Notes under the pieces: generated by a model
The model's input: only the letters and a program-made list of their open reading frames with translations
Told to the model about the DNA's origin: nothing
The model's database searches: none
Program-made: the position numbers and the translations under genes
Part shown: one piece after another, positions 11,028-35,206 of the stretch
Position numbering within the stretch: the stretch's first letter is position 1
Layout: each line of letters starts with the position of its first letter
Assembly (NCBI GenBank): GCA_028875725.1
Contig: JAPPCR010000006.1
Span: 398,134 to 462,133 of the forward strand
DNA: 64,000 nucleotides
From: Acidobacteriota bacterium
Lineage (GTDB): Bacteria; Acidobacteriota; Thermoanaerobaculia; Multivoradales; Multivoraceae
Direction: 5' to 3'

Positions 11028-11827
11028 TGGAAGTGAGGGGCTCCGCGCGCCGGGCGCCGCGGCTCGAGCTCGTCGACGGCGGCGTCGAGCGCCGGGGACG
11101 GTGGCTGCTGCGCGACGTCGACCTCGCCATCGAGCCGGCCATGCTGACCTCCGTCGTGGGGCCGAACGGCGCCGGCAAGTCGACCCTGCTGCGGCTTCTG
11201 AGCGGTACCTGGCGCCTGACGGAAGGCAAGGCCCTGCTGGGGGGCTTCGATCTGTCGGCGTTGCCGCGCCGGCAGGCGGCCCGGCGGGTGGCCTACGTGC
11301 CGCAGACGGTCCGCCCGACCTTTGAGTTCACGGTGCGGGAGTTCGTCACCCTGGGCCGCTATCCGCACGAAAACCGCCTGTTCGGCACCCGTTCCGCCGA
11401 CCGCGGATGGATCGACCGCTGCCTGGACGACACGGACGTTCTGGCGCTCGCCGACCGACGGGTGACGACGTTGTCGGGAGGCGAGTTGCAGCGCGTGTTG
11501 ATGGCGCGCTGTCTGGCCACCGAGGCCGAGGTCCTGCTGCTTGACGAACCGACCTCGAACCTCGATCTCGCCCACGGTCTCGACCTGCTGGGGCTGGCGC
11601 GCAACCTGGTCGATGAAGGTCGCTCCGTCGTGCTGGTGTTGCACGATCTGAACGCCGCCGCCCGTTTCGCCGATCGAGTGGCGGTCCTTGACGGCGGCGC
11701 CCTGATCGCGGAGGGTCCGCCGGCGGAAGTGCTGAACCCGGACCTGCTGCGCCGCGTGTTCCGGGTCGAGGCGGTGCCGCTCGAAGGATCCGCGGTGCCC
11801 GTGTTCGACTTCGAGCCGTTGCGGTAG
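11024..11827 (+). CDS. ABC transporter ATP-binding protein (FecE/BtuD-like)
   Basis: A 267-residue nucleotide-binding subunit that completes the metal-chelate importer. Walker A is GPNGAGKSTLL, the Q-loop lies in RVAYVPQTVRPTFEFTVREF, the ABC signature is TLSGGELQRVLMAR, and Walker B plus catalytic Glu is VLLLDEPTSNLDLAHG, followed by the H-loop VLHDLNAAARFADR. This LDLAHQ-like variant is characteristic of FecE/BtuD/HmuV ATPases. The start ATG overlaps the permease stop by 4 bases. The operon ends here: the next gene is convergent 2 bases downstream, and the 10-bp palindrome GTAGCGCTAC spans the junction (11824-11833). Confidence 0.93.
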   Translation: MMEVRGSARRAPRLELVDGGVERRGRWLLRDVDLAIEPAMLTSVVGPNGAGKSTLLRLLSGTWRLTEGKALLGGFDLSALPRRQAARRVAYVPQTVRPTFEFTVREFVTLGRYPHENRLFGTRSADRGWIDRCLDDTDVLALADRRVTTLSGGELQRVLMARCLATEAEVLLLDEPTSNLDLAHGLDLLGLARNLVDEGRSVVLVLHDLNAAARFADRVAVLDGGALIAEGPPAEVLNPDLLRRVFRVEAVPLEGSAVPVFDFEPLR

Positions 11828-27013: not shown

Positions 27014-28750
27014 ATGTTCCGACCCGCTCCGTCCCTGGTCGCAATGACCAGCTTCGCAGTCCTCGCGCTCGTCGCGTCCGCGACCGTCGCGGCGGCCCCG
27101 AACGCGAACAACCTCGACGCACCGCTGACCGTCTACACGGGCTCGATCGTCGGCAACGACGGCGAGCCGATTCGCGGCGCCACCGTGTCGCTGTTCTCGA
27201 CCGACGAACAGCGCAGCATCTCGGTGTACAGCCAGCCGGACGGCACGTACAAGCTGCCCGCCGTTCCCTCTGGCAAGTACAAGCTCCGCGTCCGCCTGAC
27301 CGGCTGGCTCGACGAGTGGAAGGACCTCAAGGAAACGACCGAGCCGACACCGATTCAGGTCCGCCTGCGCCAGGCCGAGGGTTGGGCCCTGCAGTCGCAG
27401 CGCCCGGCGCACGACCTGATGAACATGATGGAGTGGGAGGACGAGGCGGACGCGCTGAACTTCAAGATGATGTGCGCCTACTGCCACCAGGTCGGCACCG
27501 TCGGCTTCCGTTCACCCGAAGAGCCCGTCGACTGGGAAGTCATGCTGACCCGGATGGACGGCTTCCAAGGTCTGTACAAGCACACCCAGGACATCCTGGT
27601 CGACAAGATTGTGGACGTCTACGGCCGCGACGCGGAAGAGAACTGGACGAACTTCGAGCCGCCTGAGGCGCCGTCCGGCGAGTCGCTCAAGGGCGAGGTT
27701 CGCGAGTGGCTGATGGGTGACCAGGCCGGCGCCGTGATCCACGACCTCGAGCTGGGCGACGACGGTCTCGTCTACACCGTCGACATGGCCCAGGACGTGA
27801 TCGAGACCCTCGACCCGGTCACCGGCGAGCGGGCCTTCTACACGGTTCCCGGCGGCAAGGACTACCTCTCGCCGTCCAGTCCGACGACCGGCATCCACTC
27901 CATCGAGAAGGCCGAGGACGGCAACATGTGGGTCACCCTCGCCTACTCGGGCCAGATGGGTGAGTTCGACGTCGAGACCAAGGAATGGCGGCTTGGCTCC
28001 GGCCGCACGGCTCCGCGTCCGCGCGGCGGCTACCCGCACACCCTGCGCTTCGCGCCTGACGGGATCCTCTGGTGGACCGACGCCGGAAGCCCGAACGGCG
28101 TCGGCGTCATGTCGCTCGATCCCGAGACCTGGGACGGCAAGCGGTGGGAAGTCACCGAGTACAAGCTGCCGACCAAGGACCAGGTCCGCGGCGGCGGCGC
28201 CCGCGGTGAGTCCCGCGGCGTGACACCGTACGGCATCGACGTGGCGCCGAACGGCCACGTCTTCTACAGCAAGCTGAATGGCCAGCGCGTCGGCCGGATC
28301 CGCCCGCAGCTCGATGCCGGCGATCCGGAGCGGATCGTCGAGTGGCGGCCGCCGGTGCACGGTCCGCGCCGTCTGCACGTGGCCCCCGACGGCATCGTCT
28401 GGGTGCCGGGCTGGGCTTCGGGTGACGTCGCGTCGTTCAACGAGGAGACGGAAGAGTGGAAGGTCTATGACCTGCCGCACGGCCCGAACTCGCTGCCCTA
28501 CGCGCTGAACATCAATCCGACGAACGGTGAGGTGTGGATCACCGGTACCGGCACCGACTCGATGCTCCGCTTCGATCCGAAGACGGAGAAGTTCGTCGAG
28601 TACCGGATGCCGATGATGGTCACCTACACCCGCGAGATCGAGTTCGACGAGGAAGGCAACGCCTGGACCACGAACTCGAACGCTCCGTCCCGTCACGCCG
28701 AGCACCGTCAGGGCTCGGTGCTGATGATCTCGTCGGGCGGCGGCGAGTAG
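27014..28750 (+). CDS. Secreted CarboxypepD_reg-like / cytochrome-c-site / Vgb-type beta-propeller protein
   Basis: A 578-residue exported protein. A signal peptide (SFAVLALVASATVAAA) precedes a carboxypeptidase-regulatory-like beta-sandwich at about 35-120 (GNDGEPIRGATVSLFSTDEQ, PDGTYKLPAVPSGKYKLRV). Next comes a short helical segment with a c-type haem motif CAYCH (Cys154, Cys157, His158). Residues 230-575 form a virginiamycin B lyase-like propeller with repeats such as DDGLVYTVDMAQDVIETLDP, APDGILWWTDAGSPNGVGVM and APDGIVWVPGWASGDVASF. An AGGAGG site lies 5 bases before the ATG and a TATAGT -10 at 26961-26966. The combination suggests an extracytoplasmic redox or lyase role; no substrate can be named. 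A strong terminator follows. Confidence 0.85.
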   Translation: MFRPAPSLVAMTSFAVLALVASATVAAAPNANNLDAPLTVYTGSIVGNDGEPIRGATVSLFSTDEQRSISVYSQPDGTYKLPAVPSGKYKLRVRLTGWLDEWKDLKETTEPTPIQVRLRQAEGWALQSQRPAHDLMNMMEWEDEADALNFKMMCAYCHQVGTVGFRSPEEPVDWEVMLTRMDGFQGLYKHTQDILVDKIVDVYGRDAEENWTNFEPPEAPSGESLKGEVREWLMGDQAGAVIHDLELGDDGLVYTVDMAQDVIETLDPVTGERAFYTVPGGKDYLSPSSPTTGIHSIEKAEDGNMWVTLAYSGQMGEFDVETKEWRLGSGRTAPRPRGGYPHTLRFAPDGILWWTDAGSPNGVGVMSLDPETWDGKRWEVTEYKLPTKDQVRGGGARGESRGVTPYGIDVAPNGHVFYSKLNGQRVGRIRPQLDAGDPERIVEWRPPVHGPRRLHVAPDGIVWVPGWASGDVASFNEETEEWKVYDLPHGPNSLPYALNINPTNGEVWITGTGTDSMLRFDPKTEKFVEYRMPMMVTYTREIEFDEEGNAWTTNSNAPSRHAEHRQGSVLMISSGGGE

Positions 28751-28773
28751 GCGGCTCGGCCAGACGCAGTTCG

Positions 28774-28799
28774 ACGGCCGGTCCTTCGGGGCCGGCCGT
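28774..28799 (+). terminator. Intrinsic terminator with UUCG tetraloop
   Basis: ACGGCCGGTCC and GGGCCGGCCGT form an 11-bp stem (one G-T pair) closed by TTCG, followed by TTTGCGTTT. It lies 24 bases after the propeller stop codon and separates that transcript from the Phd-VapC promoter. Confidence 0.85.
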
Positions 28800-28826
28800 T
28801 TGCGTTTCGGTGCCTCCCTACGTGTA

Positions 28827-28847
28827 AACTAGTTGAATGAACTGGTT
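28827..28847 (+). promoter_or_regulatory. Phd-VapC operator: two near-palindromic half-sites
   Basis: AACTAGTT (28827-28834) and AACTGGTT (28840-28847) are 8-base near-palindromes repeated with a 13-base period directly upstream of the antitoxin gene. The first overlaps a weak -10-like TAAACT (28826-28831 region). Phd/YefM antitoxins autoregulate by binding paired palindromes, so this is a likely operator; the assignment is positional inference. Confidence 0.55.
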
Positions 28848-28866
28848 GACTGAGTCGGGAGAGACT

Positions 28867-29103
28867 GTGAGTGTAGGCGCGTTCGAGGCGAAGACCCACC
28901 TCTCAGCCCTGCTCGACAGGGTTTCGCAAGGCAAGGAAGTGGTCATCACGCGCAGGGGCCAACCTGTGGCACGGCTGATTCCCGCGCGTCAGGCGAAGCG
29001 GAGCGAGACGGAGAGTGTGATCGCGGAGCTCCGCCGCCGGCGGGCGGGTCTGACCTTGGACGGTCTGAATTGGAAGGACCTTCGCGATGAAGGTCGCCGA
29101 TGA
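28867..29103 (+). CDS. Phd/YefM-family antitoxin
   Basis: A 78-residue type II antitoxin. VGAFEAKTHLSALLDRVSQG followed by KEVVITRRGQPVARLIPA is the Phd/YefM N-terminal DNA-binding and dimerisation domain. The C-terminal part (ELRRRRAGLTLDGLNWKDL) should wrap the VapC toxin. The GTG at 28867 is preferred: it has a GGGAGAG site just upstream and places the family start correctly, whereas the ATG at 28837 would lie inside the probable operator. The stop overlaps the toxin start by 4 bases. Confidence 0.9.
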   Translation: MSVGAFEAKTHLSALLDRVSQGKEVVITRRGQPVARLIPARQAKRSETESVIAELRRRRAGLTLDGLNWKDLRDEGRR

Positions 29104-29513
29104 GCTTCGTTCTCGACTGCTCGGTAACGGTAGCCTGGTTGTTCGAGGACGAGGCGACTCCGGCGATTGATGCGCTGCAGGACCAGTTGAAGGAGGAAGT
29201 GGCACTGGTTCCGGGACACTGGCGTCTGGAAGTCGGCAACGTTCTGGCGCAGGCAGAACGGCGGAAACGGCTCACACCGGCCCAGACCTCGGCGCATCTT
29301 GAACTCCTGGACCGTCTGCCGGTCGCAACCGACAACGAGACGGACAGTCGAGCGTTCCGTGAGATCCTCTCGGTCGCCCGGACCGAGCGTCTGACCACTC
29401 ATGATGCGGCCTACTTGGAGCTGGCCGCCCGGCGCGGCGTACCGTTGGCTACTCTGGACCGCGCGCTCGCGCGGGCGGCGCGAAGGGTGGGTGTAGCGAC
29501 GCTGCCCGCCTGA
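29100..29513 (+). CDS. vapC: VapC-like PIN-domain toxin
   Basis: A 137-residue PIN-domain ribonuclease. The acidic metal-binding residues expected in VapC are present: Asp6 (MSFVLDCSVTVAWLF), Glu44 (HWRLEVGNVLAQAE), Asp102 (LTTHDAAYLELAARRGVPLA) and Asp120 (ATLDRAL). VapC toxins cleave tRNA or rRNA and are held inactive by the antitoxin. It overlaps the antitoxin gene by 4 bases (ATGA). Four related membrane-protein genes follow on the same strand about 180 bases downstream, so read-through from this operon is possible. Confidence 0.93.
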   Translation: MSFVLDCSVTVAWLFEDEATPAIDALQDQLKEEVALVPGHWRLEVGNVLAQAERRKRLTPAQTSAHLELLDRLPVATDNETDSRAFREILSVARTERLTTHDAAYLELAARRGVPLATLDRALARAARRVGVATLPA

Positions 29514-29620
29514 GGTCATCAGGCTCGAAGGCGCTCTCGAGGGGTGGGCGTCGGGTGCTACCGTAGCTGTCGTGACTCGGGAGAACACCGGAGCGCTTTC
29601 GGAGCGCCATGATCGGAGAT

Positions 29621-29635
29621 TCACGCTACGCGTGA
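29621..29635. promoter_or_regulatory. 15-bp inverted repeat upstream of tandem membrane genes
   Basis: TCACGC and GCGTGA flank TAC in perfect inverted symmetry, 60 bases before the first membrane gene of the array. It is the right size for a regulator dimer site, but no regulator is known, and the site could equally lie within coding sequence if translation starts at the GTG at 29572. Confidence 0.35.
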
Positions 29636-29694
29636 CGGAGAAGGCGCTTCCTAGGCTGGCCTTATGGCGTCTGGCCCGGCAGAGGTCACGCGAG

Positions 29695-30117
29695 ATGTCG
29701 CCGGCCAAGCAGAGGGCGATGGTCGTTCTCATGCTCTTCGGGACGGCCGTGTGGACCGTGAACTCGGCGATGTCGCTAGGTGACTGGCGCCCGCCGTTCC
29801 TTGGCTTGGTCGCCGTCGGCATCCTGTTCGTCGGCGCCGCGGTTCTGGCCCGTGTGAACCGGCAACCTGAACAGCAGCGATCGAGCGGCCTCGCGGCGTG
29901 GCTCGACGGTTGCCCGGGATGGTTCCAGGGAGCCGTTCTTGGCCTGATCGCCGTGGCCCTGGCGACCGCTCTCTACCGGTTTCTCGGGACCCTTGATGAA
30001 ACGGCAGCAGCCGCGCGTGGCTGGGGCTTTGACCCGTTGTTCGTCTTCCTGTTCGGTGGCATTACCCTCGTGTTTCTGCTTCAGATGCGGCGGTTGGGCC
30101 CAGAAGACGTACCGTGA
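29695..30117 (+). CDS. Four-helix membrane protein, tandem paralogue 1
   Basis: A 140-residue protein with four hydrophobic helices (AMVVLMLFGTAVWTVNSAM, FLGLVAVGILFVGAAVLAR, GAVLGLIAVALATALYRFL, PLFVFLFGGITLVFLLQM). Between helices 2 and 3 it has GLAAWLDGCPGWFQG, matching the same loop in the next three genes (W-L-D-x-x-P-x-W). I do not recognise the family. The ATG at 29695 is preferred over a GTG at 29572 because the extra 41 residues are low-complexity and unmatched in the paralogues; an AGAGG lies upstream. Its stop overlaps the next gene by 4 bases. Confidence 0.6.
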   Translation: MSPAKQRAMVVLMLFGTAVWTVNSAMSLGDWRPPFLGLVAVGILFVGAAVLARVNRQPEQQRSSGLAAWLDGCPGWFQGAVLGLIAVALATALYRFLGTLDETAAAARGWGFDPLFVFLFGGITLVFLLQMRRLGPEDVP

Positions 30118-30560
30118 CGGGGTTGGGGGGAGCGGCGGGTCGAGGGCGCGCGGATCCGAGCATGCGATGGTGCGCGTTCTGGCTCTTCACGGCCTGCTAT
30201 GGCTCGTCGGTTGCTCTCGCTGTTAGGGGATCGACCGAGCCCCGTTTGGCTGCCTATCTTCCGCTCGCAGTACTGACGCTTGTGGTCGCCGGCGTAGCGG
30301 CCATGGCTTGGAGCGCGCGCCGCGCGCTTCTTCAAAAGCCCTCGGGACTGCTGGCCTGGCTCGATTCGATCCCTGACTGGCAAGTGCGGTGCTTGCACTT
30401 GACTGGTTTGGTCGTTCTGGTCGGCTCGTTGGTTGCTGCCTGGCCCGGGGGAACGGGGATGACGCAGCTTGAGGCGACCGGGATGCTCGTCGGCGGAGGC
30501 CTCCTGATACTGGCCGTGTGGTGTGGACCACGGCCACTCCGGTTTCGTCGGCGTCGCTGA
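30114..30560 (+). CDS. Four-helix membrane protein, tandem paralogue 2
   Basis: A 148-residue four-helix protein. The N-terminal motif MRWCAFWLFTACYG matches RWVMFWLFWTYY and RWGLFWLCSVCA of the next two genes; the central loop is GLLAWLDSIPDWQVRCLHLTGL; the basic end RPLRFRRRR matches RPFRFRRR of copy 4. These shared positions identify gene duplication. The GTG at 30114 overlaps the stop of copy 1 (GTGA), so coupled translation is likely; an ATG at 30162 directly before RWCAFW is the alternative. Function unknown; with termini and central loop basic or amphipathic, it may be a small channel, holin-like or scaffold protein, but nothing decides this. Confidence 0.65.
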   Translation: MTGLGGAAGRGRADPSMRWCAFWLFTACYGSSVALAVRGSTEPRLAAYLPLAVLTLVVAGVAAMAWSARRALLQKPSGLLAWLDSIPDWQVRCLHLTGLVVLVGSLVAAWPGGTGMTQLEATGMLVGGGLLILAVWCGPRPLRFRRRR

Positions 30561-30643
30561 GCTTCGGACGGCGGCTCCCAGCCGGGCGCGGTTGCCTTAC
30601 GTTTGGTCGTTTCGGTGGTTGATAGCCTGCGCGCGTCCGACGA

Positions 30644-30669
30644 GCAGCGGCCGAATACGGGGCCGCTGC
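30644..30669 (+). repeat. Hairpin before the third membrane paralogue
   Basis: GCAGCGGCC (30644-30652) and GGCCGCTGC (30661-30669) form a perfect 9-bp stem around an 8-base loop, ending 18 bases before the ATG at 30688. No T-run follows. It could attenuate or shield translation of the third gene, or be left from duplication. Confidence 0.5.
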
Positions 30670-30687
30670 GACGAGGCGAATCAAACG

Positions 30688-31188
30688 ATGCAGGTCGTTC
30701 GACAGCCGAAAGCCGAGATTACTCGCGGAAGTGCGCCACCCGACTTGAGGTGGGTCATGTTCTGGTTGTTCTGGACCTACTACGTTCTCGCGGGACTTGA
30801 GGTGACATTGGCGCTTCGACGGTCGAGCGAGGGGTTGGGACTGTCGATAGCGACGTTCTCGGCACTGACCTTTCTCGCAGGCGTACTCGCGACGGCTGGC
30901 TTGAGTGCGCGGACCGAAGGCGTCGGGCTCCTGGTCTGGGTGGAGCGGTTTCCCGACAAGCTGATTCAGTCGGCACAGTTGACCGGTTTGGCTCTGGTCC
31001 TCTTGGCCGTTTACTCAGGCACTCCCTGGGGGGCGGGCTTAGAGGTGTTGCACGAGTCGGCCTTCATGTTGGGATTCGCCCTGGCGGCTCTTGCGATCTT
31101 CTGCAACGTCAGACCTCTCTTCGGGCGTCGCTGGACCTGGAAGATCGGCGCCAGGAAGAGCGGAGATCCCGCGGGCGATTCGAAGTGA
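30688..31188 (+). CDS. Four-helix membrane protein, tandem paralogue 3
   Basis: A 166-residue relative of its neighbours: DLRWVMFWLFWTYYVLAGLE (helix 1), ATFSALTFLAGVLATAGLSA (helix 2), loop GLLVWVERFPDKLIQSAQLTGL, then two further helices ending FALAALAIFCNVRPLFGRRW. It has an N-terminal extension of about 20 residues and a longer basic tail (WTWKIGARKSGDPAGDSK). The start ATG at 30688 follows a hairpin; GAGG about 12 bases upstream is a weak site, so an upstream start within 30523-30687 cannot be excluded. Function unknown. Confidence 0.6.
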   Translation: MQVVRQPKAEITRGSAPPDLRWVMFWLFWTYYVLAGLEVTLALRRSSEGLGLSIATFSALTFLAGVLATAGLSARTEGVGLLVWVERFPDKLIQSAQLTGLALVLLAVYSGTPWGAGLEVLHESAFMLGFALAALAIFCNVRPLFGRRWTWKIGARKSGDPAGDSK

Positions 31189-31227
31189 AGGACGCGCCCG
31201 CTTGGAGGAGAGAACCTGAGCTCTGGC

Positions 31228-31605
31228 GTGCGGTGGGGCTTGTTCTGGCTGTGCAGCGTCTGCGCCGCGCTTATGGCGGCCATCTCTTGGGAGTCCGACG
31301 AACGGCGGTGGCTTGCTCTCGCCATTGCCGTCGTGCTGGGCGCCTACCTCGGCGTGTTGGCGGCGGCCCGGTGGACTGAAGGCGAGGCGCTTTCGCGATC
31401 AAGGACCCTGATGGAACGGTTCCAGGCGGCGCCTGATTGGGTAGTCCGGCTGGCTGCACTGACTGGTGCAGCCGCCCTGCTCACGGCGTCGTTTCTCCCA
31501 TGGGGACGGCAGGAGATCTTCGCTCCGGCCGCAGTCGTGGGTTGGTCCTTGATCGGCCTGATCTGGCTGGCGCGCCCCCGGCCCTTCCGCTTCCGCCGTC
31601 GCTAG
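31228..31605 (+). CDS. Four-helix membrane protein, tandem paralogue 4
   Basis: A 125-residue member of the array: MRWGLFWLCSVCAALMAAIS, ALAIAVVLGAYLGVLAAARW, loop MERFQAAPDWVVRLAALTGA, AALLTASFLPWG, then AAVVGWSLIGLIWLARPRPF and the basic RFRRR end. It is in the same reading frame as copy 3, 39 bases after its stop. The GTG at 31228 lies 16 bases after an excellent GGAGGAGA site at 31204-31211, which is too far. An in-frame CTG at 31216 has better spacing and would give a start like SSGVRWG, closer to the paralogues; a non-standard start is therefore possible. Confidence 0.6.
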   Translation: MRWGLFWLCSVCAALMAAISWESDERRWLALAIAVVLGAYLGVLAAARWTEGEALSRSRTLMERFQAAPDWVVRLAALTGAAALLTASFLPWGRQEIFAPAAVVGWSLIGLIWLARPRPFRFRRR

Positions 31606-31653
31606 CTCGGACAGGCCAGAACGACCGCGAGAGGCGACTCCTGGACTGGTTGG

Positions 31654-31800
31654 ATGGGAGCCGGAGATAGCAGAACGACTCGGAAGTGCGCCAGTCGGCC
31701 GCAGACACAGGGGCCAACGTGGATCAGGCTGTGGTGCGTCGCCGTGTGGGGTCTGCTTTGCGTCGAGTTCATTTGGGTGGTTGTCAGATCGATGTCGTGA
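31654..31800 (+). pseudogene. Fragment of a fifth membrane paralogue (first helix only)
   Basis: A 48-codon frame following copy 4. Its last half, TWIRLWCVAVWGLLCVEFI then WVVVRSMS, lines up with helix 1 of copy 3 (LRWVMFWLFWTYYVLAGLE...LRRS) with W, R, W, E and RS in register, and is preceded by a similar polar leader. A TGA at 31798 ends it directly after helix 1, and no continuation is visible before the convergent DUF481 gene. It is either a decayed copy or a one-helix derivative. The remaining bases of the 31606-31823 gap hold nothing else I can support. Confidence 0.45.
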
Positions 31801-31823
31801 AAAGGCTGGGCTGGCGTAGATCC

Positions 31824-32687
31824 CTAGAACGAGTACCGGAGCGAGTTCGACAGCACGACATCCGTCTCCTTGACGCCCGTGGGCGGCTCGCTGTCGTGGG
31901 CGACGTTCAGGTTGATCGCCAGGGCGAGGCCGCGAAGAAGCTGGATTTCGAAAGAGGTCTCGGAGAGCACGCGGTAGTCCTCGGCGCGGTCGAACCGGGT
32001 CTGGAAGTAGAGAGTCTCGACCAGACGGAGGCGTTCGTCCCTGCTGTTGTAGCGGACGGTCAGGTAGTTGGTGGAGCGGTGGTGTTCGCTGCGTCGCGCG
32101 TCGGCGAGTTCCGCGGGCAGATCCAGGGTCTCCCGCTCGAGCATGTAGCCGGTGCCGAGGAAGACCTCGGCGCGGGGCGACTCCAGCACCTGGAAGCGGC
32201 CCCCGCCGCCGAACAGGAGCCGCTGTTCGAGCCGGGTGAACTCGTTGAACTGGTGCTGGCCGAACACCTCGTACGAGAACCGGCCACTGTGTTCGCGGAT
32301 GAATCGCAGGTGGCTCAGCGCGTTGTTGACGAAACGGCTCTCGTTCAGCCGGGTGAAGGAGTAGTTCGACGTCAGGAAGATGACGTTGGTGGGACGTTTC
32401 GGGGCGTCCTCGCCGTCCGTCGACTCCTCCTCGGCCGGGTCGGATACCCCGTTGGGATGCATCCAGGCGTACTGGACGCGAGCGCCGGCGCCGAGAATGT
32501 CGCGCTCCGTGTTGCCTCGCTGGAGGGAGGAGCTGAGGTCGATCGTGCTGGCCCACCCCGGCGCCTCGGCGCCGACGCGCATGCTCTCCGTGTTGACTTG
32601 GGCCGCGGCGGGCAGCGTCAGTGCGGTTGTCGCCGCCAGGGCGGCGAGCAGGCGCACGGCGAGGGCGCATTGGCCTTCCAGTCTCAT
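31824..32687 (-). CDS. DUF481-like outer-membrane beta-barrel protein
   Basis: A 287-residue exported protein with signal peptide (LLAALAATTALTLPAAAQ). After cleavage come alternating strand patterns typical of DUF481 salt-induced outer-membrane proteins: STIDLSSSLQRGNTERDILG, NVIFLTSNYSFTRLNESRFV, FSYEVFGQHQFNEFTRLEQR, and YLTVRYNSRDERLRLVETLY, closing with DVVLSNSLRYSF, whose terminal Phe suits BAM-dependent insertion. An acidic loop (EEESTDGEDAPKR) lies near residue 70. The ATG at 32687 is 11 bases after the stop of the serine hydrolase on the same strand, so the two are probably co-transcribed. Biochemical function is unknown for the family. Confidence 0.8.
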   Translation of the reverse strand: MRLEGQCALAVRLLAALAATTALTLPAAAQVNTESMRVGAEAPGWASTIDLSSSLQRGNTERDILGAGARVQYAWMHPNGVSDPAEEESTDGEDAPKRPTNVIFLTSNYSFTRLNESRFVNNALSHLRFIREHSGRFSYEVFGQHQFNEFTRLEQRLLFGGGGRFQVLESPRAEVFLGTGYMLERETLDLPAELADARRSEHHRSTNYLTVRYNSRDERLRLVETLYFQTRFDRAEDYRVLSETSFEIQLLRGLALAINLNVAHDSEPPTGVKETDVVLSNSLRYSF

Positions 32688-32698
32688 GCAGCGCGACG

Positions 32699-35206
32699 TT
32701 ACTCTGGAAACGCCGACGTATCGGCGAGGCCGCAGAAAGAGCGGCTCGGATTCGTATAGGTGCGTGCGGCGTCGCCCGCCTTGTCCTTCACGGTCAGCCG
32801 GTAGTCGACGTCGGTGAGGCCGGCGGCGAAGACCCAGAAGGCGTCGTTGTGCGTCCGGCCATCCAGCACCTTCACCGCAAGTTCGATGTTGCCGGGCGAG
32901 AAGAAGGACATGTAGCCCGTGGTGCCGGCGCCGGGGAACGGCGAGGCCGGGCCGGTCTCGCCGTCGGCCTTCGTCCAGACGGCCGTGATCTCGAACCGGC
33001 CGTCGAGCAGGCAGAACGCGCCGGGCGCGCAGTCGACGCCCGCTTCTTCGGACGAGGAGGGGAGGGCGGCGGTAACGGGCAATACCGACGCGGCGCTGGC
33101 GCCCGCCGGCTCGGCGAAGGCCATCGTGTCGCCTCGGCCGCACACCTCACCGGGCGGATTCCGGTAGACGACGACCTGGTCGCGCAGCGTGTCGGTGACG
33201 GCCAACCAGTACTCGACATCGGTGAGGGCGCCGTAGAACACCCAGTGGTGACGGTTGACGCCGCTGCCGTCGAGGATCTTCACGACCAGTTCGACGTTGT
33301 CCGGGGAGAAGAAGGTGGCGATGCCGCTCTCGTCACTCAGTCGGCTGAGCGAGCCCGTGCCGCGCTCACCGTCGTGCTGGGACTCCCACTCGACCTCGAC
33401 CCGGAAGCGGCCCCCGCCGAGGCAGAGAGCGCCGTCGTTCTCCGTGCAGCCCGCGGCTGCGGTCATGTCCTGGATGACCCCCACGGCACGGACCTCCGGC
33501 AGGTCGGCGCCTCCCTGGACGTGGCTCAACGTGAAATCGAACAGTTCGCTTCGCTCGATCTGGTCGTCCGCCATCAGGGGCACCGTGACCTCCCGCGGCC
33601 CCGACTCGCCGTGCCGCCAGGTCAGACGGCCGGAGACGGCGCCGAAGTCCGCTTCTTCGGCCGAACGGGGCGCCGTGCGGTAGTCGACGGCGACATCACC
33701 CTCCGTCCCGCCTCGCCGCTCGACCGACACCGTGGCCAGGCCGCCCTCCTGGCCGACGAAGGCCGGCGCGGTGAACTCGATCGAACCTGCGGGGTTCGCG
33801 GGCTCGCCGCCGGGGCCGATCCAGATTCTCATGCGTCGGGGAGCGTCGATGCCGCCGCTCATCGCTTCGAACTCGAAGCGGAGGTCGCGCGGGTCGATAC
33901 TGGTGGCGTTCGGGAGCAGCGGCACGCGGACGGTGCGGGGCGAGGCGTCGCCGTGCTCCCAGCGGAGTTCGCCTTCGGTACGGCGGAAGTCGCGGCCGGC
34001 GCGGGCGCTGCCGTTGCGGGCGCGGTAGGCGAGAGTCGCCGCTCCGTCGCTGCCGCCCTCTCGGCTGATCTCGATCGTGATCGCTCTCGGACCGCTGTCC
34101 CCGGTCGAGGACAAGGTCGCAGCGGTCCACCGGCCCCGCCGTTCCGGCCTGATCGCAGCCCGGGCCAGGTCCTGCAGTTCCTCAAAGTAGCTTCGGAACG
34201 TCTCCTGAGGGCGAGGCGAGCGTTCGGAGAGGGTGATCATCGTCATCACGATGTCGGCTTCCGGATCGACGCCGATGTACTGGCCGTTGTAGCCGTGGGC
34301 GAGGTAGCGCCCCCGTGGCCTGATCCACCACTGGTAGCCGTAGCTCGGCGCGCCGGCGATGCCGCCGGTCTGGCTGCGTGTGGACTCCGCGATCCACTCG
34401 CGGGAGACGAGGCGCCGGCCCTCCCAGAGGCCTTCCTGCAGGGCGAGCTGCCCGATCTTCGCCATGTCGCGGGGCCGGATGCGGAGGCCGGTGCCGCCCC
34501 AGTGCCGGCCGCTGAGGTCCGGGTCCCAGGTTGCAGTGTGGATGCCCAGCGGTTCGAACAGGTGTTTCCGGACGAAGGCGAGATGGCTCTGCCCGGAGGC
34601 GCGGTTGTTCGCCTCGGCGATCACGTGCGACAGCCCGCTCGAGTAGGAGAACTCGGCGCCGGGCTGCGCCACCACCTCCCGGGTCAACACGTAGTCGACG
34701 CTATCCGGGTTGTTCCAGAACGCCTGGTCGGTGTCGTTCCATGCCATGCCGGCGGTCATCGTCAGGGCATGGCGCAGCGTCAGCCGGTTCTTCGGCGCCT
34801 CCGCGAGGCGGTGGGCGTAGTGCGGAATGAGGTCCGCCAGCCGGGCGTCGACGGAGGGGATGAGGCCGCGGTCGAGCGCGATGCCGGTCGCCAGCGAGGT
34901 GACACTCTTGCTGACCGAATGGACGTTCTTGAGGGTCGTGTTCGTGAAGCCGCCGAAGTAGGTCTCGGCGACCAGGGTCCCGTGGCGGACGATGACGATC
35001 CCGCGCACGGTCTGGAACTCGGGGCGGGAGCCGACCCGGTCGAAAATGTCCTGGACGGCTCCCCGGTCCAGACCCTGGTGCGCCGGGACGGAGCGGGCCC
35101 AACCGTCGCCGATGTCCGGCGGCTGGGCCAGACCGGGTTGGGCCGCGAGGGCGAGCAGGACGACGAAGGCCGCGGCCGCTCCTCCACCTGGATCAGGATT
35201 CGACAT
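32699..35206 (-). CDS. Secreted beta-lactamase-family serine hydrolase with Calx-beta-like and twin C-terminal modules
   Basis: An 835-residue exported, modular protein. A signal peptide ends near residue 28. Residues 35-360 are a class C beta-lactamase / serine hydrolase domain with SxxK at Ser97-Lys100 (HSVSKSVTSLATG), a YSSG-type second motif (FSYSSGLSHVI) and HGYNG as third motif. Residues about 370-600 hold two Calx-beta-like beta-sandwiches (RTEGELRWEHGDASPRTVRV; GRLTWRHGESGPREVTVPLM). The end has two ~100-residue repeats starting CTENDGALCLGGGRF and CAPGAFCLLDGRFEI and ending with DTMAF and DTSAF. Such repeats are, to my memory, common in Acidobacteriota secreted proteins. It is likely an esterase or peptidase at the surface. 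Confidence 0.85.
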   Translation of the reverse strand: MSNPDPGGGAAAAFVVLLALAAQPGLAQPPDIGDGWARSVPAHQGLDRGAVQDIFDRVGSRPEFQTVRGIVIVRHGTLVAETYFGGFTNTTLKNVHSVSKSVTSLATGIALDRGLIPSVDARLADLIPHYAHRLAEAPKNRLTLRHALTMTAGMAWNDTDQAFWNNPDSVDYVLTREVVAQPGAEFSYSSGLSHVIAEANNRASGQSHLAFVRKHLFEPLGIHTATWDPDLSGRHWGGTGLRIRPRDMAKIGQLALQEGLWEGRRLVSREWIAESTRSQTGGIAGAPSYGYQWWIRPRGRYLAHGYNGQYIGVDPEADIVMTMITLSERSPRPQETFRSYFEELQDLARAAIRPERRGRWTAATLSSTGDSGPRAITIEISREGGSDGAATLAYRARNGSARAGRDFRRTEGELRWEHGDASPRTVRVPLLPNATSIDPRDLRFEFEAMSGGIDAPRRMRIWIGPGGEPANPAGSIEFTAPAFVGQEGGLATVSVERRGGTEGDVAVDYRTAPRSAEEADFGAVSGRLTWRHGESGPREVTVPLMADDQIERSELFDFTLSHVQGGADLPEVRAVGVIQDMTAAAGCTENDGALCLGGGRFRVEVEWESQHDGERGTGSLSRLSDESGIATFFSPDNVELVVKILDGSGVNRHHWVFYGALTDVEYWLAVTDTLRDQVVVYRNPPGEVCGRGDTMAFAEPAGASAASVLPVTAALPSSSEEAGVDCAPGAFCLLDGRFEITAVWTKADGETGPASPFPGAGTTGYMSFFSPGNIELAVKVLDGRTHNDAFWVFAAGLTDVDYRLTVKDKAGDAARTYTNPSRSFCGLADTSAFPE

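Follow-up and report, generated by a model that had tools for sequence, protein, structure and literature searches.

The immunity proteins of colicins of the A and B type are small proteins of the inner membrane that have four helices and neutralise a pore former. Tandem polytopic immunity genes are likewise a known arrangement, being described for TsaI (DUF443) of Staphylococcus aureus, the small, non-identical copies of which lie in strings behind tspA and number two to sixteen by strain in the sections of that report drawn on here (PMC9484751). The same sections give little evidence of recombination between the TsaI copies and mention their carriage on plasmids, with data not shown there (PMC9484751). 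For head-to-tail cyclised bacteriocins, the relevant sections of a second report describe clusters of a precursor, a SpoIIM protein, a transporter and hydrophobic proteins, commonly with Yip1 (PMC8659200).

The locus described here lies in a window of 64,000 nucleotides, the whole stretch of DNA analysed, from the genome designated G000. An array of four open frames (T1 to T4) at 29695-31605 was confirmed by the frames, by hydropathy and by sequence similarity, as was the GTGA overlap of T1 and T2 at 30114-30117 (Table 1), and the central loops read as an earlier note, made from the sequence, had spelled them. The RWxxFWL stretch that the note had often seen before helix 1 was found at the start of that helix in T2, T3 and T4 and not in T1. 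The basic tail, pronounced in T2 and T4, was also there in T3 and consisted of only two arginines in T1, which was the most diverged copy. With T2 as query against all of G000, the search recovered T3 (E 1.6e-16), T4 (E 3.6e-9) and weakly T1 (E 1.5e-3) in place, with a sole further row at E<=1 (0.21), and the similarity of the four proteins is therefore above chance. T1 was also joined to the family via copies of G015 and G009 (36% identity, E 2.8e-10 and 6.7e-5 in the small set of loci searched). In alignments of 33 and 54 members the loop proline was kept in at least 90% of the rows. The ATG at 29695 is the preferred start of T1 because the frame upstream of it (29572-29694) had an omega, from simple counts (NG86), of 1.01 against G018 and 0.91 against G011 (0.47 between G018 and G011), which disfavours a start at 29572.

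Table 1. Coordinates of features in the window and at related loci (L numbers)
Feature	Coordinates	Strand	Remarks
Left border gene of slot	27014-28750	+	Vgb_lyase/CarboxypepD_reg protein (Pfam); matched in 21/21 genus genomes
phd antitoxin gene	28837-29103	+	Pfam PhdYeFM_antitox E 6.1e-13; 92.4% nt identity to G017; outside near-identical stretch
vapC (PIN) toxin gene	29100-29513	+	Pfam PIN E 1.3e-10; 94.4% nt identity to G017; last mismatch 29468
Near-identical stretch with G017	29469-32878	.	T1-T4, fifth-copy relic, DUF481 gene, slightly beyond
T1	29695-30117	+	140 aa; four predicted TM helices; ATG start
T2	30114-30560	+	148 aa; four predicted TM helices; basic tail
T3	30688-31188	+	166 aa; four predicted TM helices; ATG 30688
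T4	31228-31605	+	125 aa; four predicted TM helices; basic tail; GTG start
Fifth-copy relic (T5 type)	31654-31797	+	profile match 31654-31776, E 6.8e-5; absent from the earlier note
Right border gene	31824-32687	-	DUF481 protein; Pfam DUF481 E 2.2e-22
Second right border gene	32699-35206	-	Beta-lactamase/Calx-beta protein (Pfam); matched in 21/21 genus genomes
HEC-01A/B pair	L041:9425-11190; L046:3943-5708; L068:2839-4604; L050:1712-3477		candidate defence pair inside array
SpoIIM genes behind leader-type peptides	L042:9396-10486 (with Yip1); L045:10791-11303; L077:2642-3733		3/21 genomes

The description of the proteins as belonging to an unknown family stood. Sequence searches of Pfam, NCBIfam, PHROGs, PADLOC and the PDB gave no meaningful match for T1-T4, which match no family named in these databases. 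The best score was 17 bits in Pfam-A (DUF3995 with T1, where 34.3 are needed) and 15.4 bits in NCBIfam (with T2, where 35 are needed); PADLOC returned no family at E<=0.1, PHROGs nothing near its cut-off, and a second domain was seen in none of T1-T4. As single queries, T3 had no match among phages and viral contigs and T2 had none among plasmids, and for these single proteins a phage or plasmid family was rejected. In the protein database T2 found seven proteins and a 33-row profile at least 33 (with the 7999 candidates sharing most words scored), none with a precomputed Pfam domain. The profile matched 17 of the 21 whole genus genomes, G001 weakly. In a sample of 297 genomes of the phylum, with 13 candidates scored for most genomes, nine were matched, namely seven of the same genus and two weakly (G057 and G314); since the sample held seven matched and four unmatched genus members, about 286 of its genomes came from elsewhere in the phylum. 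The range of the family is all but limited to a single genus. The T2 search also gave two weak matches in G031, of the same order, where by profile one place was marginal (E 0.004, inside a long frame) and the other gave nothing; G031, G057 and G314, with matches weak or marginal, were not accepted as members beyond the genus. Among the papers listed by a literature search, none deals with this protein family. Two of the genus members, G017 and G018, are from bacteria which we take to be sponge-associated.

Four membrane stretches were found in each of T1 to T4 by hydropathy. Most of the lysines and arginines outside the helices fell in the two termini and in the loop that joins helix 2 to helix 3 (7 of 9 in T1, 12 of 14 in T2, 14 of 16 in T3 and 10 of 13 in T4), from which both ends are predicted to lie inside. 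An AlphaFold2 model of T2, of low confidence (pLDDT 60.5), placed helices at 15-39, 45-71, 79-84, 88-109 and 118-136, that is, four long helices with a predicted short one at the loop motif. The predicted plan is thus one of four helices with cytoplasmic N and C ends, in which the proline-marked loop lies at the inner face and forms a short helix. Both this first model and a second one from 54 rows were too poor for a fold comparison (pLDDT 60.5 and 59.9, pTM 0.38 and 0.35, respectively), a Foldseek search with the first, poor model (pLDDT 60.5) gave no match at E<=0.001, and the best match of the profile among PDB sequences had an E of 0.43.

In a tree of 37 rows, the T1, T2, T3, T4 and T5 types each formed a clade with support of 100/99 to 100/100 and with at least two genomes per clade; the T2-like genes of G004 and G014 joined T2 at 82/89 only, and the deeper joins carry long-branch warnings. 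As the types form supported clades the copy types are old, and the tree indicates that diverged types in tandem are older than the species. Recent duplication was excluded by the tree, which bears out the earlier view that the copies had been kept separately. Omega, by the same NG86 counts, was 0.31-0.52 for T1 (three orthologues), 0.26 against G018 and 0.33 against the T2-like copy of G004 for T2, 0.40 against G011 and 0.33 against G015 for T3, and 0.36 against G011 for T4. These values of 0.26-0.52, compared with 0.07-0.24 for four flanking genes, show T1-T4 to be under purifying selection which is relaxed but real.

The chromosomal slot between the border genes was compared across the 21 genus genomes. 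Family copies were present in 13 (G000, G017, G018, G011, G009, G016, G015, G007, G003, G004, G014, G020 and G013), with one to six each when partial copies are counted, and absent from eight. The sets of copies varied, with a T5-type copy alone in G003 and a T2-like with a T5-type copy in G004 and G014, and single T3-type genes occurred at off-site loci in G008 and G006. Slots without a family copy had a gap of 94-173 bases in G005, G010, G008, G002 and G012, held relics only in G001, and in G019 and G006 were occupied by a large gene of the fn3 or LRR/fn3/Calx-beta kind. The slots of G007 and G017 are interrupted by contig ends, so that one border is on another contig. G007 showed two versions of the slot, one with an array and the other with Phd-VapC only, and this bin, with 5% contamination, may mix strains. 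The left border gene was inverted in G018 (L035, L076; G018:C29), and the MATE gene at G018:C29 now has as neighbours a gene for a leader peptide, a relic of phd and part of a family copy. The array of the earlier note is real and more dynamic than described there.

A relic of a fifth copy follows T4 in the window, its middle having been lost between two repeats of 15 bases, 14 of which agree; the repeat occurs twice in G018 (L035, 8942 and 9284) and once in the window (31762). In G001 the first 27 phd codons run directly into the 3' end of the fifth copy, from which it follows that intervening DNA was lost there. A database protein, P0030, carries a T5-type copy in frame with the C-terminal part of a Phd antitoxin (below the Pfam cut-off), and thus adds to the signs that slots of this kind undergo deletion.

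Comparison of the window with G017 gave 51 mismatches in 28700-29468 and four in 29469-31824, indels not counted. The 2.4-kb stretch with T1-T4 was 99.8% identical to G017 and its flanks 88-95%; the DUF481 gene was 98.9% identical, and identity fell to 87.7-94.7% in the next gene, where mismatches are dense from 32879 on. In G001, from which the array is absent, the DUF481 gene was 99.1-99.5% and the next gene 89.1-94.8% identical to the window. The dense differences at 32879-33340 to both G017 and G001 mark a common right end of the block. A chimaeric contig is a possible source of the near-identical block; against it, two separate contigs of G017 carry the two block ends and G001 has the right end as well, and a recent exchange is for that reason likely. 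The pattern suggests that the array alone, without most of phd-vapC, was recently exchanged with another species (G017). Such an exchange, together with the changing sets, argues against a unit of array and toxin-antitoxin pair and against an obligate hetero-oligomer.

Ten off-site family clusters were found at E<=1e-3, two of them weak. Within 2 kb of four (G008:C7, G006:C43, G012:C101 and G018:C29), at 0.7-1.8 kb, was a gene with a secretion-type leader, MREALRxxLLSVLFF or variants. G008:C7 and G006:C43 are the same locus by descent, the nearest leader frame at G006:C43 is broken after 17 residues, and the partial family copy at G018:C29 belongs to a fragment displaced from the main slot. 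A search of the 21 genus genomes for the leader gave 45 rows in 15 genomes at E<=0.1; in the 29 rows examined the cores differed widely, many being glycine-rich and hydrophobic and some cysteine- or proline-rich, and three frames were broken by a stop. Small proteins with a RGALLSVLFFALLIGGAPTMAAA-like leader and unrelated cores occur genus-wide (L042:10692-11009, L039:1061-1507, L078:6134-6517, L079:5252-5779 and L081-L100), and behind a few of the leader-peptide genes comes a very small frame that has one membrane stretch or two. The four co-locations observed (three if the orthologous pair is counted once), against 0.012 expected, form an inflated figure because the leader had been noticed beside three of these same loci; without these three, one was observed against 0.008 expected (p 0.008), that one being G018:C29. 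At the level of genomes there was no co-occurrence of family and leader (11 with both, four with the leader only, six with the family only and none with neither; Fisher p 0.28). The leader search gave no match in G000 at E<=0.1, and no leader row lay within 2 kb of any of the 13 main-site arrays.

At G008:C7 one strand carries in order a peptide gene, a short hydrophobic protein, SpoIIM (Pfam E 1.1e-16), Yip1 (7.1e-7) and a T3-type gene. The order at G006:C43 was similar with a SpoIIM match (9.8e-16), and the frame in the position of Yip1 had no Pfam match; at both loci SpoIIM thus stands between a glycine-rich peptide gene and a T3-type gene. The SpoIIM proteins of G006 and G008 were 41% identical and the T3-type genes were close (dN 0.085), and given this divergence of SpoIIM beside similar T3-type genes, peptide cluster and T3 do not evolve together. 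A 4.6-kb contig, G012:C333, carries a SpoIIM cluster without a family member. The frames scanned at G008:C7 and G006:C43 included no transporter, the peptide-like genes matched no precursor family, and no SpoIIM relative was found in G000.

The reading that we tentatively prefer, at somewhat below an even chance, is that T1-T4 are stand-alone inner-membrane immunity proteins against membrane-active peptide toxins of related bacteria. Each copy would block one kind of such toxin, each type binding the pore-forming peptide or shielding the membrane against it, and the array of the window would be an orphan set retained without its own toxins. An orphan, partner-free set would account for the gain, swap and loss of copies, and the position of four of the ten off-site loci near bacteriocin-like peptide genes favours orphan immunity proteins. 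As the best explanation, immunity joins the old tandem types, the independence of partners, the sharing of the block and the peptide neighbours. It is kept tentative because G000 had no leader match and family and peptides did not co-occur by genome. No toxin was found in the array. Nor was a variable region facing a toxin seen, as divergence within types affected helices and loops alike, lacked a constant hot spot and left omega below 1, and in T5 the predicted outer loops were the least variable parts. Residence in a shared hot spot would give the same pattern. A wider scheme, in which genus-specific competition among uncultured Acidobacteriota sets a polymorphic family of secreted peptides with one conserved leader and interchangeable cores against a freely exchanged, toxin-free four-helix immunity array beside toxin-antitoxin or HEC-01 genes, is doubtful as a whole.

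It is rather unlikely that T1-T4 are instead lineage-specific envelope accessory proteins with a part in adaptation to lipids, a host or stress, whose genes happen to sit in a recombination hot spot beside neighbours that are uninformative on function. The near restriction to the genus, the changing copy number and the relaxed selection fit such a role, as do the mevalonate-pathway-like genes (identified by eye) that also adjoin the off-site copies at G008:C7 and G006:C43. The maintenance of several old types side by side and the common block would be left unexplained by it, and the repeated nearness to leader peptides speaks against it.

Genes of Phd-VapC, HipBA or HEC-01 were found in eight of the 13 array-bearing slots and none of these in the other five (G003, G004, G014, G020 and G013). 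Family models were run on the HEC-01 pair of G015 (HEC-01A E 8.6e-152, HEC-01B E 4.7e-54; PADLOC) and the HipBA pair of G011, and other genomes were called by identity to these. HipBA occurred in G018 and G011, with fragments of it on either side of an N run in G009, and the HEC-01 pair stood between family copies in G015 and, 84-100% identical to it, in G007 (G007a), G009 and G016. A second unnamed small hydrophobic family lies beside HEC-01 and a T5-type copy (L041:8842-9357 and 11296-11784, L069:2452-2991 and L070). On the minus strand of the window, 29416-29541 encodes a 42-residue match to the HipA C-terminus opposite the 3' end of vapC, and in G011 and G018 the HipA end seemingly runs into former vapC DNA. 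The earlier note had tied the array to Phd-VapC; intact Phd-VapC precedes it in G000 and G017 only, two of the 13 array-bearing genomes, and the stretch nearly identical to G017 starts within the last 45 bases of vapC and excludes the rest of phd-vapC. A single unit of array and Phd-VapC is rejected on this block and on the relatives, and the link of the array to toxin-antitoxin genes is one of common residence in a hot spot. The phrase "stress or defence module" is supported for the neighbourhood only, by the eight slots as against the five without such genes.

It is unlikely that T1-T4 are anti-phage or stress effectors that make the inner membrane leaky once triggered by a partner (Phd-VapC, HipBA or HEC-01) or by a phage. 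The frequency of these partners and the placement of HEC-01 between family copies are in its favour; against it, the partners change or are lacking, the block omits most of phd-vapC, T1-T4 have neither a PADLOC match at E<=0.1 nor a second domain, and four unguarded pore formers in tandem would presumably be costly. That T1-T4 form one hetero-oligomeric channel or transporter, for which the common plan of four adjacent genes and the T1/T2 overlap would speak, is very improbable and is rejected in its obligate form, as the types occur singly or in changing combinations and eight of the 21 genomes have no copy at the site.

For a predicted membrane-protein family that is nameless in the libraries searched, there is now a known location, a profile to search with and a role open to testing. 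If its members are orphan immunity proteins, the slot would show uncultured bacteria stockpiling and trading protection, and would point to a set of bacteriocin-like peptides, the leader of which occurs in 15 of the 21 genus genomes (E<=0.1).

Among known systems, HEC-01 (PADLOC) shares the slot with family copies in four relatives; it is absent from the slot of the window, and T1-T4 match no HEC-01 model. The likeness to immunity proteins of the colicin A/B type is one of description, in the small four-helix membrane plan, and no immunity family was among the Pfam matches of T1-T4 at E<=1. With the cyclised bacteriocin clusters, as the relevant sections describe them, the loci at G008:C7 and G006:C43 share a T3-type gene downstream of a glycine-rich, precursor-like peptide and SpoIIM (DUF95), with Yip1 at the former; in contrast, the window has no precursor, SpoIIM or Yip1, and at the loci of the relatives any cyclisation or activity of the peptides is putative. 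TsaI, in the sections drawn on, differs in having five helices rather than the four predicted here, and DUF443 was not among the Pfam matches of T1-T4 at E<=1. The array also belongs to another phylum and has Phd-VapC upstream instead of a toxin gene at its head; a toxin of another kind may lie elsewhere in G000, where the search covered leader peptides. With immunity of T1-T4 only putative, the likeness to TsaI as described in those sections lies in layout and not in family: a tandem array of diverged, predicted polytopic copies in variable number, one to six in 13 of the 21 slots.
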